64,000 nt of DNA from Faecalibacterium sp. An121 (GTDB lineage Bacteria; Bacillota; Clostridia; Oscillospirales; Ruminococcaceae), in the NCBI RefSeq assembly GCF_002160915.1, contig NZ_NFLM01000005.1:1-64000 (forward strand), read 5' to 3'. Shown piece after piece: positions 17,610-23,183 of this stretch. The number at the start of each line of letters is the position of its first letter. The stretch's first letter is position 1. Made by a program: the position numbers and the translations under genes. The notes below the pieces were generated by a model. That model saw only the letters and a program-made list of their open reading frames with translations. It was not told where the DNA came from and did no database searches.

Positions 17610-17678
17610 GTACACGGGCAAATATTTACAAAACGGATACAAAAACAGCAGATGCAGCGCTGTTTTAAGGAGGTCATC

Positions 17679-18086
17679 ATGATCTACGGCATCGGATGCG
17701 ACCTGTGCGCCATCCCCCGGATGGAAAAAAGCCTGACCGGGCCCCATGGCGGGGCCTTTGTGCGGCGGGTGTTCGGCCCGGACGAACGGGAGGCTCTTGG
17801 CCTGTCGGAACAGACCGAGAGCCTGCCGGCCCGGCGGATAGCCAGTGCCGCCGCCAACTTTGCCGCCAAGGAAGCCTTTCTGAAAGCGGCCGGCACCGGG
17901 CTGGCCGGTCCCTTTGCCCTGGCCGAGATCCAGGCCGTGCGGCTGCCCTCGGGGGGGCCGGCCTACCGGTTTTCGGGCCGCACCGCCCAATGGGTGGCCC
18001 AGCGCCGCCTGACCGCCCATCTGACGCTGAGCCACGACGGCGGCATGGCCATGGCAGTCTGCCTGCTGGAGAGCAGCGATAACTGA
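17679..18086 (+). CDS. acpS: holo-[acyl-carrier-protein] synthase
   Basis: 135 residues. MIYGIGCDLCAIPRMEK contains the Mg-binding GxD motif, and FAAKEAFLKAAGTGL is the catalytic KEAxxKA motif. It transfers 4'-phosphopantetheine from CoA to acyl carrier protein. ATG at 17679 follows AAGGAGG. CoaBC, which makes the CoA precursor, is encoded at 57876-59069 in the same window but not linked. The downstream mazF gene is 155 nt away. Confidence 0.93.
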   Translation: MIYGIGCDLCAIPRMEKSLTGPHGGAFVRRVFGPDEREALGLSEQTESLPARRIASAAANFAAKEAFLKAAGTGLAGPFALAEIQAVRLPSGGPAYRFSGRTAQWVAQRRLTAHLTLSHDGGMAMAVCLLESSDN

Positions 18087-18241: not shown

Positions 18242-18595
18242 ATGGAGGTACACAGAGGAGAAGTTTTCTATGCCGACCTGTCGCCTGTGGTCGGCTCGGA
18301 GCAGGGCGGCGTCCGCCCTGTGCTGATCGTCCAGAACGAGATCGGCAACCGCCACAGCCCCACCGTGATCGCGGCGGCCATTACATCCCGGCTGGATAAG
18401 ACCCGCCTGCCCACCCACATCAACATCCGTGCGGCGGACACCGGCCTGGCCAAGGACAGCGTGGTACTGCTGGAGCAGATCCGCACCCTTGACAAGCACC
18501 GCCTGCGCCAGCGGGCCGGGCAGATCACCCCCGAAGACCAAAAACGGGTCAACCAGGCCCTGGACGTCAGCCTTGGGCTGGACAGCGCCACCTGA
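18242..18595 (+). CDS. PemK/MazF-type endoribonuclease toxin (NdoA-like)
   Basis: 117 residues. MEVHRGEVFYADLSPVVGSEQGGVRPVLIVQNEIGN is the MazF fold with the conserved GxxRP, followed by ITSRLDKTRLPTHI and the C-terminal VLLEQIRTLDKHRL. MazF enzymes cut mRNA at short motifs. No MazE antitoxin gene is visible in the 155 nt upstream, so the antitoxin may be encoded elsewhere, as often appears in Clostridia. Ribosome site AAGGAGGGAG. Confidence 0.9.
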   Translation: MEVHRGEVFYADLSPVVGSEQGGVRPVLIVQNEIGNRHSPTVIAAAITSRLDKTRLPTHINIRAADTGLAKDSVVLLEQIRTLDKHRLRQRAGQITPEDQKRVNQALDVSLGLDSAT

Positions 18596-18602
18596 CCCCC
18601 AA

Positions 18603-18632
18603 AATGCCCCGCCCCGCCGGCGGGGCATTTTT
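18603..18632 (+). terminator. terminator of mazF
   Basis: AATGCCCCGCC and GGCGGGGCATT form a perfect 11-bp stem followed by TTT. Confidence 0.92.
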
Positions 18633-18797: not shown

Positions 18798-18838
18798 GTT
18801 ACCCGCAGGTAACCGTCCATTTGTTACCTCCCGGTAAC
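18798..18838. promoter_or_regulatory. tandem GTTACC-N4-GGTAAC dyads upstream of the repeat-peptide operon
   Basis: Two perfect dyads, GTTACCCGCAGGTAAC at 18798-18813 and GTTACCTCCCGGTAAC at 18823-18838, have identical six-base arms, different four-base centres and a centre spacing of 25 bp. They lie 23-63 bp upstream of the -35 box at 18861, the usual place for activator sites. I saw no copy of the motif elsewhere in the window. The cognate regulator is not encoded next to the operon. Confidence 0.7.
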
Positions 18839-18860: not shown

Positions 18861-18889
18861 TTTACAGTCCGGCAAAGCGGCATTAGAAT
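18861..18889 (+). promoter_or_regulatory. promoter of the ACG-repeat peptide operon
   Basis: TTTACA at 18861-18866 and TAGAAT at 18884-18889, 17-nt spacer. Transcription would start near 18896, about 110 nt before the peptide ATG. Confidence 0.65.
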
Positions 18890-19004: not shown

Positions 19005-19220
19005 ATGTCCTTGAAGAACCTGTTCCACAAAGAGACCGAGGGAAAGGCCGCTTCTGCCTGCGGCACCGCTTGCGGCGCCGGTGACAAGAAACCCACCGCC
19101 TGCGGCACTGCCTGCGGCGCCGGCGACAAGAAGCCCACCGCCTGCGGCACTGCCTGCGGCGCCGGTGACAAGAAGCCCACCGCCTGCGGCACTGCTTGCG
19201 GCGCCGGCGACAAGAAGTGA
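19005..19220 (+). CDS. Cys-rich repeat peptide, ACGX type, putative radical SAM substrate
   Basis: 71 residues. A 17-residue leader (MSLKNLFHKETEGKAAS) is followed by four copies of ACGTACGAGDKK joined by PT, giving eight Cys, each within ACG. The DNA repeats as 42-bp units at 19056, 19098, 19140 and 19182, with only synonymous differences between copies. AAGGAGG precedes the ATG. This matches the small Cys-rich peptides named, from memory, the ACGX system in TIGRFAMs, predicted substrates of the adjacent radical SAM/SPASM enzyme. The mature product and modification are unknown. No Cys precedes the repeat region. Confidence 0.88.
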   Translation: MSLKNLFHKETEGKAASACGTACGAGDKKPTACGTACGAGDKKPTACGTACGAGDKKPTACGTACGAGDKK

Positions 19221-19232
19221 TCTGACCCCGGG

Positions 19233-19263
19233 TCCCCGCGGTGCTTGCCCTGGCCCGCGGGGA
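19233..19263 (+). other. hairpin between precursor peptide and maturase genes
   Basis: TCCCCGCGG and CCGCGGGGA, nine-base perfect arms, with no T-run after them. Such structures between RiPP precursors and maturases usually stabilise the precursor mRNA or partly terminate, giving more peptide than enzyme. That role is inferred. Confidence 0.6.
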
Positions 19264-19312
19264 TCTTGCCTTATCCCCTGTTGGATCCCCCGCCCCGGAA
19301 GGAGAAGTTTCT

Positions 19313-20353
19313 ATGGAGTATTTCGCATTTCAATGGCATATCACAGAGGCCTGCGACCAGCGGTGCCGTCACTGCTACATCTACGCTCTGGGCAGCCACG
19401 CCAAATTCAAGGAGATGGCGCTGGAGAACATGGTGACGGTGATCGAAAACTGCAAAGCCTTCTGCGAGAAGGCCGGCCGCCTGCCCTACCTCTACATTAC
19501 AGGGGGCGACCCCATCCTGCACCCTCAGTTCTGGACGCTGCTCAAGATCCTCAAGCTCTCCGGGATCCCCTTTGCCCTGATGGGCAACCCCTTCCATCTG
19601 ACGGCGGAAGTCTGCCGCAAGCTGAAAGACTGCGGCTGCCGAAAGTACCAGCTGTCCCTGGACGGCCTGCGCGAGACCCACGACGGCATCCGGCAGCAGC
19701 CGGGTTCCTATGACGCCACCATGGCGGCCATCCCCCTGCTGCGGCAGGCCGGCATCGATGTGGCCATCATGACCACCGTCTCCCGCTGGAACGTGCAGGA
19801 CATCCCCCCGCTGGTGGACGAGGTGGTCCGGAACAAGGCCGATATCTTCGCCTTTGCACGTTACTGCCCGTCGCAGAAGGACCGGGACGTGTGCTGCTCC
19901 CCGGCGGAGTACCGCCATATGATGGAGCTGTGCTGGGAGAAATTCCAGAAATACGAGGCGGAAGGCTGCGAGACCACCTTCAACCTGAAAGACCACCTGT
20001 GGACGCTGTTTTTGTACGAGAAAGGGATCTTTGATCCCAAGGCCTACCCCGACGACGAATACGTTTACGACGGCTGCAACTGCGGCAACTGCCATATGAC
20101 CATCCTGTCCGACGGGGCGGTCTACGCCTGCCGCCGGATGGAGAGCAAGGTGGGCAATGCCCTCACCGACGATCTGTACAGCCTGTTCACCGGCCCGGCC
20201 TTTGACAAATACCGTGTATACGAAAAGTTTGAGAAGTGCTCCCGGTGCGAGCTGCTGCGGTTCTGCCGGGGCTGCCCTGCGGTGGCGGCAGGCTACCACG
20301 GCAATATGTATGCGCCCGACCCCGAGTGCTGGAAGGAGGCAGACGTCCCATGA
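19313..20353 (+). CDS. radical SAM/SPASM peptide maturase (ACGX-system type)
   Basis: 346 residues. The radical SAM cluster motif C14-x3-C18-x2-C21 lies in HITEACDQRCRHCYIY, followed by YITGGDPILHP (GGE-like motif) and YQLSLDGLRETHDGIR. The C-terminal SPASM region has Cys-rich segments CNCGNCH, VYACRR and FEKCSRCELLRFCRGCP, enough for two auxiliary iron-sulfur clusters. SPASM enzymes install thioether or C-C crosslinks in peptides. ATG at 19313 follows AAGGAG; the longer frame to 19241 runs through the hairpin. The stop overlaps the nitroreductase start (ATGA). Confidence 0.92.
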   Translation: MEYFAFQWHITEACDQRCRHCYIYALGSHAKFKEMALENMVTVIENCKAFCEKAGRLPYLYITGGDPILHPQFWTLLKILKLSGIPFALMGNPFHLTAEVCRKLKDCGCRKYQLSLDGLRETHDGIRQQPGSYDATMAAIPLLRQAGIDVAIMTTVSRWNVQDIPPLVDEVVRNKADIFAFARYCPSQKDRDVCCSPAEYRHMMELCWEKFQKYEAEGCETTFNLKDHLWTLFLYEKGIFDPKAYPDDEYVYDGCNCGNCHMTILSDGAVYACRRMESKVGNALTDDLYSLFTGPAFDKYRVYEKFEKCSRCELLRFCRGCPAVAAGYHGNMYAPDPECWKEADVP

Positions 20354-20937
20354 CGGTACAGGAAGCGATCATCCGCAGACGTTCCATTCGCAAATACCAG
20401 GCCCGGCAGGTGCCCCGGGAGGATCTGGAAGCCATCCTTGCGGCGGGGCTGTACGCCCCCAACGCAGGGGGCGGCCAGCGGTCCATCCTCTGCGCCATCC
20501 GGGATCCTGAGCTGGCCGCCCGGCTGGGCCGGCTCAACCTGGCCCGGTTCGACCGCAGCCATCTGGAGGGGAATTACGTTTCCAGCGAGCAGCCCAGCGC
20601 CATCGACGACCCGTCCATCCGCAGCGGCTTTTACGGTGCGCCCACCGTATGCGTCATCTTTGGGCCGGAGCGATTCCTGTACAGCGTGCCGGACGCTTTC
20701 TGCTGCGCCTCCAGCATGGCGCTGGCCGCCTATGAGCGGGGGATCGCCTCCTGCATCGTCGCACGGGCCGAGGAGACCTTCGACACCCCGCTGGGCCGCA
20801 GCCTGATGCAGGAATGGGACATCCCCGAAGGATATACGGCCCGCTGCTTTGTGACACTGGGCTATGTGGAAGGGCCTTATCCCCAGCCCAAACCCCGGCG
20901 CCCGGGGCGGACCAGGATCATTGAACCAAAGGAGTGA
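20350..20937 (+). CDS. nitroreductase-family flavoprotein
   Basis: 195 residues. MTVQEAIIRRRSIRKYQARQ is the classic FMN-binding Arg-rich opening of nitroreductases, followed by LYAPNAGGGQRSIL and a C-terminal FVTLGYVEG. The family reduces nitro compounds or flavins, or acts in dehydrogenation of peptides in some RiPP pathways. Its four-base overlap with the radical SAM gene means coordinated translation, so it may supply electrons or further oxidise the peptide. Which role applies cannot be decided from sequence. Confidence 0.88.
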   Translation: MTVQEAIIRRRSIRKYQARQVPREDLEAILAAGLYAPNAGGGQRSILCAIRDPELAARLGRLNLARFDRSHLEGNYVSSEQPSAIDDPSIRSGFYGAPTVCVIFGPERFLYSVPDAFCCASSMALAAYERGIASCIVARAEETFDTPLGRSLMQEWDIPEGYTARCFVTLGYVEGPYPQPKPRRPGRTRIIEPKE

Positions 20938-20942
20938 CCAAG

Positions 20943-21566
20943 ATGGACGCGCAAACCTGTCTGAAAAAACTGAGCTATGTGGGGGTGCTCGCCTTTGCCA
21001 CGGTGGATGAAACGGGCGGCCCCCAGGTGCGGAACATCAGCGCCATCCATTATGAACCGGACGCCTTGTATTTCTTCACCGCCCGGGGCAAGGACTTCTG
21101 CCGGGAGCTGCTGGCTTCCCCCAAGGTGCAGGTGCTGGGCTACACCATGTACAAAGAGATGATCCGCCTGTCGGGCACAGCCGAACCGGTGCCCGACGCA
21201 GAGCAGGCCGCATGGCGGGACCGCATCTTTGCGGAGCAGCCCTACCTGGCCAACGTCTACCCGGGGGCTACCCGGCAGATCGGCATCGTTTTCCGCATCC
21301 GGGATATGGACATCGAATATTTCAACCTGGGGGTCAGCCCCATCTTCCGCCAGAGCTACACCATCGGCGCGGGCCAGACAAAGCCCAAAGGCTACCGCGT
21401 CACCGACGCCTGCATCGGCTGCAAGCGGTGTGCGGCCCACTGCCCCCAGGGGTGCATCGACGTCACCCAAAAGCCGGCGGTCATCCGGCAGGAGCACTGC
21501 CTGCACTGCGGCGCCTGTTTTGAGGCGTGCCCGGTCGGGGCGGTGGAGAGGAGGGCGCCGCGATGA
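20943..21566 (+). CDS. pyridoxamine-phosphate-oxidase-like flavin domain fused to a 2x[4Fe-4S] ferredoxin
   Basis: 207 residues. Residues 1-140 form a PNPOx-like split barrel (YVGVLAFATVDETGGPQVRNIS, ALYFFTARGKDFCREL). Residues about 155-200 carry two ferredoxin motifs, CIGCKRCAAHCP and CLHCGACFEACP. The fusion suggests electron transfer between flavin and iron-sulfur clusters, possibly feeding the radical SAM enzyme. ATG at 20943 is chosen because AAAGGAG lies 7 nt upstream; a GTG at 20934 overlaps the previous stop. The macrodomain gene overlaps its stop as ATGA. Confidence 0.9.
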   Translation: MDAQTCLKKLSYVGVLAFATVDETGGPQVRNISAIHYEPDALYFFTARGKDFCRELLASPKVQVLGYTMYKEMIRLSGTAEPVPDAEQAAWRDRIFAEQPYLANVYPGATRQIGIVFRIRDMDIEYFNLGVSPIFRQSYTIGAGQTKPKGYRVTDACIGCKRCAAHCPQGCIDVTQKPAVIRQEHCLHCGACFEACPVGAVERRAPR

Positions 21567-22351
21567 CACAGGAGCAGCGCCTGGACATCCTTCTGGAGGC
21601 TCTGCTGCGCGAGCGGCCCGACCGCCAGGACATCCCCCGCCCCGCCGGCCCGCAGGAAAAGCGCCGGCTGCTGCGGGCCCTGATGAACGTCCGTCCGCCC
21701 TGGCCCCTCGACCCGGCCTTTCTGGAAGTGCAGGACGCCTTCCTCGCAGCCGAACGGGAGACCAAAGGGGTGGTGGAGGGAGACGCTTTGCCCGCCGCTC
21801 CGGCCGACCCGCGGCTGGCGCTCTGGCAGGGGGATATCACCCGGCTGCGGGCAGACGCCATCGTCAACGCTGCCAACAGCCATCTGCTGGGCTGTTTCGT
21901 GCCCTGTCACGGCTGCATCGACAACGCCATCCACTCGGCGGCGGGTCTGCAGCTGCGGGAAGCCTGCCGCCGCCTGATGGAGGCCCAGGGCGGCTGCGAA
22001 CCCTGCGGCCGGGCCAAGCTGACCCCCGGCTACAACCTGCCCGCCTCTTATGTGCTGCACACAGTGGGCCCCATCGTCCAGGGGCGCGTGACCGGCCGGG
22101 ACCGGGCCGCCCTGGCCGCCTGCTACCGGTCCTGCCTGGAATTGGCATCGGCCCACGGGCTGCACAGCGTGGCTTTCTGCTGCATTTCCACCGGTGAATT
22201 CCATTTTCCCAACCAGGAAGCCGCCCGCATCGCCGTCCGGACGGTGCGGCAGTACCTGGACCAGACCCACAGTTCCATCAGGAGGGTGATCTTCAATGTT
22301 TTCAAGGACATCGACGCAGACATCTACCGCAGCCTCCTTGACGCCGGTTGA
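21563..22351 (+). CDS. zinc-dependent macrodomain protein (protein-ADP-ribose hydrolase)
   Basis: 262 residues. A helical N-terminal segment of about 80 residues precedes the macro fold: LALWQGDITRLRADAIVNAANSHLLG, then GCFVPCHGCIDNAIHSAAG, in which Cys, His and Cys match the zinc ligands of SirTM-linked macrodomains, and AKLTPGYNLPASYVLHTVGP and CCISTGEFHFP. Members remove ADP-ribose placed by the partner sirtuin. It overlaps the upstream ferredoxin gene by 4 nt and the downstream sirtuin by 56 nt, strong evidence that they act together. Confidence 0.93.
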   Translation: MTQEQRLDILLEALLRERPDRQDIPRPAGPQEKRRLLRALMNVRPPWPLDPAFLEVQDAFLAAERETKGVVEGDALPAAPADPRLALWQGDITRLRADAIVNAANSHLLGCFVPCHGCIDNAIHSAAGLQLREACRRLMEAQGGCEPCGRAKLTPGYNLPASYVLHTVGPIVQGRVTGRDRAALAACYRSCLELASAHGLHSVAFCCISTGEFHFPNQEAARIAVRTVRQYLDQTHSSIRRVIFNVFKDIDADIYRSLLDAG

Positions 22352-23183
22352 GCGTCTGGCCCGTGCCCTGGACGCCGCCGACGCGGTGGTGGTCGGGGCC
22401 GGGGCCGGGCTGTCCGCCTCGGCGGGGATGACCTATGACGGCGAACGCTTCGAGCGGTTTTTCAGCGACTTCCGGCAAAAATACGGCATCCGGGATATGT
22501 ATTCGGGGGGCTTTTATCCCTTTGACACCCTGGAAGAATACTGGGCTTTCTGGAGCCGCCTGATCCTCCTCAACCGCTACCAGAAAGCGCCCCTGCCGGT
22601 ATACGATGACCTGCTGGCCCTGGTGCGGGGAAAGGATCACTTTGTCCTCACCACCAACGTGGACCACCAGTTCCAGTTGGCGGGCTTTTCCAAAGAGCGG
22701 CTGTTCTACACTCAGGGGGACTACGGCCTGTGGCAGTGCATGGAACCCTGCCATCCCAAGACATACGACAACGAGCAGGCCGTCCGGCAGATGGCCGCCG
22801 CCCAGAAGGAGATGAAGATCCCCACCGAGCTGATCCCCCGCTGCCCGGTCTGCGGCAAGCCCATGACCATGAATCTGCGGTCCGACAGCACCTTTGTACA
22901 GGACGAGGGCTGGTATGCCGCCGCCGGGCGGTATCAGGATTTTCTGCGCCGCCACAAGGGCAAACGGGTGCTGTTTCTGGAACTGGGCGTGGGCGGCAAC
23001 ACCCCCGCCATCATCAAGTACCCTTTCTGGCAGATGACCCTTCAAAACCGCAGGGCCACCTACGCCTGCATCAACCAAAACGAAGCCTACGCGCCCCCGC
23101 AGATCGCAGCCCGTTCCATCTGCATCCCCGCCGACATCGGCGACGCCCTGGCCGCCTGCCGGGAAGCATCGGGATGCGTCTGA
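22296..23183 (+). CDS. SirTM-class sirtuin, predicted protein ADP-ribosyltransferase
   Basis: 295 residues. VVVGAGAGLSASAGMTYDG is the NAD-binding loop, TTNVDHQFQLAGF replaces the deacetylase-type TQNID, and CPVCGKPM is a single Cys pair. The TTNVD form and linkage to a zinc macrodomain mark class M sirtuins, which ADP-ribosylate protein rather than deacetylate. Known SirTM operons of staphylococci and streptococci also carry GcvH-L and a lipoate ligase; neither is here. The ATG lies inside the macro gene with CAGGAGG upstream. Confidence 0.9.
   Translation: MFSRTSTQTSTAASLTPVERLARALDAADAVVVGAGAGLSASAGMTYDGERFERFFSDFRQKYGIRDMYSGGFYPFDTLEEYWAFWSRLILLNRYQKAPLPVYDDLLALVRGKDHFVLTTNVDHQFQLAGFSKERLFYTQGDYGLWQCMEPCHPKTYDNEQAVRQMAAAQKEMKIPTELIPRCPVCGKPMTMNLRSDSTFVQDEGWYAAAGRYQDFLRRHKGKRVLFLELGVGGNTPAIIKYPFWQMTLQNRRATYACINQNEAYAPPQIAARSICIPADIGDALAACREASGCV

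Follow-up and report, generated by a model that had tools for sequence, protein, structure and literature searches.

The enzyme SbtM converts Cys or Sec to a thio(seleno)oxazole by removal of four hydrogens (PMC11002830), and its substrate family carries SGUG, in which Sec stands before Gly (PMC13188914). Thiooxazoles are also formed by the unrelated MNIO enzymes at the KCG repeats of the copper-binding captophorins (PMC12668002), so that Cys-Gly is a context shared by the SbtM substrates and the MNIO repeats. SirTM operons of other bacteria, which combine a lipoylated carrier, flavin oxidoreductases, a sirtuin and a macrodomain, have been described as a redox response system (PMC4518038). The ACGX system (acgA/acgM) is named in the NCBI annotation library, and our literature search found no paper describing or testing it. 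Here we analyzed an acgA-acgM locus in a 64,000-nucleotide stretch of Faecalibacterium sp. An121 DNA (the window). Its features are as follows.

18611..18626, forward strand: terminator-like hairpin 3' of a pemK/mazF-like gene, separating the acgA unit
18798..18813, no strand assigned: dyad 1, GTTACCCGCAGGTAAC, probable HxlR-type operator (position, pattern search)
18823..18838, no strand assigned: dyad 2, GTTACCTCCCGGTAAC, probable HxlR-type operator (position, pattern search)
18861..18889, forward strand: promoter-like site TTTACA-N17-TAGAAT (consensus match only)
19005..19220, forward strand: acgA, ACGX-repeat precursor peptide, 71 aa (TIGR04341 match)
19005..19055, forward strand: putative leader part of AcgA, MSLKNLFHKETEGKAAS (boundary placed at the start of the first repeat)
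19056..19217, forward strand: acgA repeats, four 42-bp units (the last 36 bp) with 8 ACG sites (sequence)
19313..20353, forward strand: acgM, radical SAM/SPASM maturase, 346 aa (TIGR04340)
20350..20937, forward strand: nitroreductase-family flavoprotein, PF00881 (domain match; conserved neighbour)
20934..21566, forward strand: PNPOx-like flavin domain with two 4Fe-4S motifs (domain match; conserved neighbour)
21563..22351, forward strand: macrodomain protein-ADP-ribose hydrolase (NF003163, 341 bits, cut-off 272)
22296..23183, forward strand: Sir2-like protein, classed as SirTM from its macrodomain partner (weak Sir2 match; homologue annotated Sir2; synteny)

AcgA scored 58.1 bits against NCBIfam TIGR04341 "ACGX-repeat peptide" (acgA; cut-off 28), and the product of the gene 3' of it scored 589.7 bits against TIGR04340 "radical SAM/SPASM domain protein, ACGX system" (acgM; cut-off 400), acgM starting 92 bp past the acgA stop codon. 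Because of these matches, and because the Roseburia sp. 831b genes bear these names in RefSeq, acgA belongs to a predicted peptide family that is already catalogued. The preliminary description of this DNA had called it a precursor peptide, which is borne out by the precursor match above cut-off and by the adjoining maturase gene. Position 19005-19220 is the single acgA-type match in the organism's genome.

The peptide consists of MSLKNLFHKETEGKAAS, three copies of ACGTACGAGDKKPT and one copy of ACGTACGAGDKK. The units (19056-19097, 19098-19139, 19140-19181 and 19182-19217) start exactly 42 bases apart and differ at 1-4 of their 36 common bases, all differences being silent (ACC/ACT, GCT/GCC, GGT/GGC, AAA/AAG), and none of 20,000 shuffles of AcgA had any 12-mer occurring twice. 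The four ACGTACGAGDKK(PT) units noted at first reading, with silent differences only, no PT in the last unit and every Cys within ACG (8 of 8), were all found as claimed; the repeats are real, but the gene is not made of repeats alone, since a 17-residue leader precedes them. No signal peptide was apparent in AcgA by eye. Read-through of acgA with Sec, as for a selenobacteriocin precursor (TIGR04081), was considered and rejected, as the core sites are all Cys codons and none of the precursors examined has a repeat continuing beyond a TGA stop. A structured RNA reading of the GC-rich hairpin between acgA and acgM (19218-19316) was also dropped, its stability not being above that of shuffles (z -1.19).

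Repeat number varies between close relatives, and the units are homogenised within a gene. Two loci whose acgM DNA is 93.5% identical and whose leaders are the same (L003 and L090) have 4 and 10 CG sites, another pair with 98.3% identical acgM (L040 and L041) has 8 and 5, and the group around L099-L127 ranges from 3 to 9, although these counts come partly from draft assemblies in which short-read collapse is possible in single cases. The units of acgA in the window share 89-96% of their bases among themselves and 75-81% with the units of the nearest relatives, the closest of which has an acgM 86.8% identical to that of the window. This pattern fits duplication, loss and homogenisation of units within the gene, as judged from sequence comparison, and agrees with the tandem duplication that the preliminary description had proposed, repeats being both gained and lost. 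The opposite outcome, a constant repeat number with diverged repeats, was not seen in this comparison of species-level genomes, because unit number differs and the window units are most alike among themselves. In one relative (L103, 7708-7956) acgA ends in an unrelated tail after two units, which looks like a frameshift left by the deletion of a repeat.

The 112 loci surveyed yielded 96 different precursors, in which the number of Cys ranges from 2 to 13, the low end being soft since some extractions were incomplete. Gly follows the Cys at 524 of 562 sites and Ala precedes it at 447, the preceding residue being mostly Ala or Ser. Two unit types are found, one in which the sites come in pairs with a spacing of four residues (ACGxACGxGD) and the other with single sites (ACGxGD), joined by variable linkers such as KKPT, KPEEKPA and DDQPKPS. 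Gly after most Cys together with such variable linkers is what would be expected if Cys-Gly is the modification site. The leaders differ by phylum, with MALSNLFGW and MSLKNLF in Bacillota and leaders that contain HSAQ or RSAQ in Bacteroidota.

Among 198 genomes of the same bacterial family, AcgM above cut-off was found in 13 and the precursor in 14, in the same genomes; the extra genome with a precursor (G055) has both genes broken, AcgM by a split between two frames and the precursor by a stop. This distribution bears on the idea of AcgA as a metallothionein-like chelator, left unmodified or modified only lightly, with the real substrate of AcgM elsewhere. Eight Cys in 71 aa and a family core of 12% Cys with Lys, Asp and Glu would suit a chelator, but AcgA and AcgM co-occur exclusively and are always adjacent, and metal binding does not require that Gly follow Cys so strictly; we regard this idea as quite unlikely.

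In AcgM itself, the CX3CX2C motif (C14, C18, C21) and the Cys of the SPASM domain (PF13186; C255, C257, C273, C309, C312, C318, C321, C339) are invariant in 37 sequences. In the structure model (pLDDT 88, pTM 0.88) an N-terminal RRE fold or fused leader-binding domain is absent, the motif starting from residue 14 and a barrel strand lying at residues 3-9. After its own family, the best model for AcgM is SbtM (TIGR04082) with 189 bits, the next reaching 126. That score is under the SbtM cut-off of 350 and covers profile positions 198-503 only, AcgM being without the roughly 195-residue N-terminal part of the SbtM model. The likeness therefore means that AcgM may work like SbtM, not that it belongs to that family, and its product may differ from that of SbtM because of the failed cut-off and the missing N-terminal part. 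No SbtM above cut-off was found in 299 genomes of the phylum.

By analogy with SbtM, a loss of 4 Da per Cys of AcgA is our leading prediction. A change of -2 Da, as suggested earlier, found no support, and we replace it by the -4 Da per Cys reported for SbtM, the best other model for AcgM. The computed monoisotopic mass of AcgA is 6734.10 Da at full length, 6701.85 with eight thiooxazoles and 6717.98 with two hydrogens removed per Cys; for the tryptic-type piece KPTACGTACGAGDK the computed values are 1278.57 versus 1270.51.

Many SPASM peptide maturases with Cys-rich precursors form thioether cross-links. An AcgM of the sactipeptide or ranthipeptide type would link Cys to a nearby residue and turn AcgA into a chain of small rings; the fold search with the AcgM model, which returned SuiB, anSME, SkfB and PqqE, and the regular pairing of CG sites (222 intervals of 4) are consistent with this. 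However, AcgM scored 45-46 bits with the PapB and sactipeptide models, far below the SbtM score, many relatives have single-Cys units (ACGAGD), and Gly is the one fixed residue near the motif. Thioether formation is a possible but doubtful alternative to the SbtM-like oxidation.

The gene order in the window, acgA, acgM, nitroreductase, PNPOx/4Fe-4S, macrodomain and Sir2-like, with the ends of the genes 3' of acgA and acgM overlapping or touching, is identical to that annotated in RefSeq on a Roseburia sp. 831b plasmid. We surveyed the neighbours of 101 related loci, which were counted irrespective of relatedness and only where enough flank was available, with a Pfam check. Of 86 loci, 79 have a nitroreductase, PNPOx/ferredoxin or quinone-oxidoreductase-like (zinc-binding MDR) gene no more than 900 bp downstream, and such genes are nearly absent farther from acgA/acgM. 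The acgA-acgM pair sits in a conserved operon with redox genes, a macrodomain gene and a SirTM-like sirtuin gene, although some of the acgAM loci are without the macrodomain/sirtuin pair. A metal-transport gene was not a conserved neighbour, and no MNIO (DUF692) enzyme with its partner was found among the scanned window neighbours or the conserved clusters. Directly upstream in the window lies a PemK/MazF-type toxin gene (18242-18595), after an AcpS-like gene (17652-18086); no small antitoxin gene before it was obvious in the list of open reading frames.

These neighbours also bear on the cleavage proposed in the preliminary description, by which the repeats would be cut apart into several copies of a short secreted two-Cys peptide, a bacteriocin or a signal. 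The repetitive layout with Lys-rich joints and the Lys at the end of 84 of the 96 precursors could be taken as signs of such processing, but around 94 loci we found no conserved ABC exporter, peptidase or immunity gene, the genes that do recur beside acgA/acgM encode redox enzymes and a regulator, and the linkers vary in length and sequence both between units and between species. Release of copies is left unsupported by this, and we consider it very unlikely.

The regulator is of the HxlR type. Its gene lies within 2.5 kb in 59 of 71 loci, usually divergent, with a density of 0.154 per kb near acgA/acgM versus 0.007 farther out (about 21-fold). One N-terminal Cys is kept in 59 of 59 aligned HxlR proteins at the position that matches Cys6 of YodB, a reactive residue that senses electrophiles such as quinone and diamide (PMC8063818). 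Both dyads in the window are perfect GTTACC-N4-GGTAAC and lie 5' of the promoter-like site. The pattern GTTAC-N6-GTAAC, with at most one mismatch, is 33-fold enriched upstream of acgA (22 of 97 loci, mainly of Bacillota, with little in Bacteroidota), and none of the spacings 4, 5, 7 and 8 occurs upstream of acgA in the 97 loci. In the genome of the window GTYAC-N6-GTRAC occurs at 6 places, compared with 5 for the reversed-pattern control, and 2 of the 6 are upstream of acgA. From their position, the dyads would be operators through which an HxlR protein controls acgA. No HxlR gene lies beside the window operon; HxlR proteins are encoded elsewhere in the genome, and the regulator would act from there.

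Within the genus, 31 genomes yielded AcgM in only 2, of which one has a copy 52% identical with an internal stop codon, and closer relatives lie outside the genus, in Blautia schinkii DSM 10518 (88% protein identity) and Flavonifractor sp. An10 (86%). Two genus-mates (G509 and G506) have HxlR, PNPOx-type protein, macrodomain and sirtuin genes together, without acgA/acgM. Because of these operon-only genus-mates, the sparse occurrence and the relatives elsewhere, acgAM is patchy and probably a horizontally moved cassette that has joined an operon of the HxlR-PNPOx-macrodomain-sirtuin type. In genus-mate loci L153 (4897-7576) and L154 (5679-8320) the HxlR gene is divergent to the PNPOx-type/macrodomain/sirtuin operon, again without acgA/acgM. 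Besides gut Bacillota and Bacteroidota, a methanogen plasmid has the ACGX system; on this Methanosphaera (archaeal) plasmid (L148, 3667-5019) the acgM relative is split and annotated as two genes, and its neighbours are an HTH regulator, a 4Fe-4S protein and a zinc-binding dehydrogenase. The system can travel, since it is present in four large plasmid records and, as two partial matches, on IMG/VR contigs. We also considered acgAM as mobile or viral cargo and set this aside, no dedicated element having been seen.

The best explanation, to which we give a probability of about one half, is that AcgM modifies the Cys of AcgA in an SbtM-like way and that the product is an intact intracellular thiol chain in an HxlR-controlled stress response. 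AcgM, a SPASM radical SAM enzyme with no fused leader-binding domain, would act on the Cys of each ACG site, most likely by a four-electron oxidation to 5-thiooxazole. The product would remain inside the cell as an intact multi-site chain and may serve as a thiol polymer, either sacrificial or metal-binding, in the HxlR-controlled response to electrophiles, oxidants or metals, with the flavin reductases and the macrodomain/sirtuin ADP-ribosylation pair working beside it. The number of units would set the reactive sites per chain and would change by tandem duplication and deletion. The data show directly the family membership, the co-occurrence, the operon, the dyads and the change in repeat number, from which we infer the Cys modification and its chemistry, the intracellular location and the stress role. 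A many-thiol peptide kept inside the cell and made with flavin reductases under a regulator of a thiol-sensing type fits protection against electrophiles, oxidants or metals, and the conserved neighbours suggest that AcgA shields the cell from reactive chemicals and is not an antibiotic.

The conserved operon, the regulator and the candidate operator supply a testable role for a family so far named in an annotation library, and the SbtM link supplies its specific mass prediction. If true, this explanation would join radical SAM peptide chemistry to stress protection instead of antibiotics, and anaerobes would reach thiooxazole polymers without oxygen.

Compared with the known systems, the locus is closest to ACGX itself: both window proteins are above the curated cut-offs, and order and operon are as on the Roseburia sp. 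831b plasmid, whereas the window differs by its four nearly perfect units, its two dyads and the lack of an adjoining HxlR gene. SbtA/SbtM (TIGR04081/TIGR04082) offers the closest other enzyme model, with a modified Cys or Sec that precedes Gly; in contrast, AcgM is below that cut-off and without the N-terminal 195 residues, and AcgA has no TGA/Sec and many tandem sites. The captophorins (bufferin, oxazolin, fontiphorin), made by MNIO enzymes from KCG repeats, resemble AcgA in tandem xCG sites, variable repeat number and a setting of metal or oxidative stress (PMC12668002, PMC12452194), but an MNIO-type iron enzyme acts there and a radical SAM enzyme would act on AcgA, and the bufferin and oxazolin precursors have signal peptides, unlike AcgA as judged by eye. 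AcgA is possibly an anaerobic counterpart of such thiooxazole metallophores. A bolder version of this analogy, which we hold to be unlikely, would make AcgA an oxygen-independent captophorin counterpart, an anaerobic thiooxazole polymer made by a radical SAM enzyme, induced through an HxlR electrophile sensor and substituting for lipoyl-GcvH-L as thiol carrier in macrodomain/SirTM operons, where its redox activity would be switched by reversible ADP-ribosylation. The extended SirTM-macrodomain operons (GcvH-L, LplA2, OYE, LLM) share with the window a sirtuin, a macrodomain, flavin oxidoreductases and a small thiol-bearing protein (PMC4518038); the difference is that AcgA stands in place of the lipoylated GcvH-L, and by analogy it could be the thiol carrier of the present operon layout.
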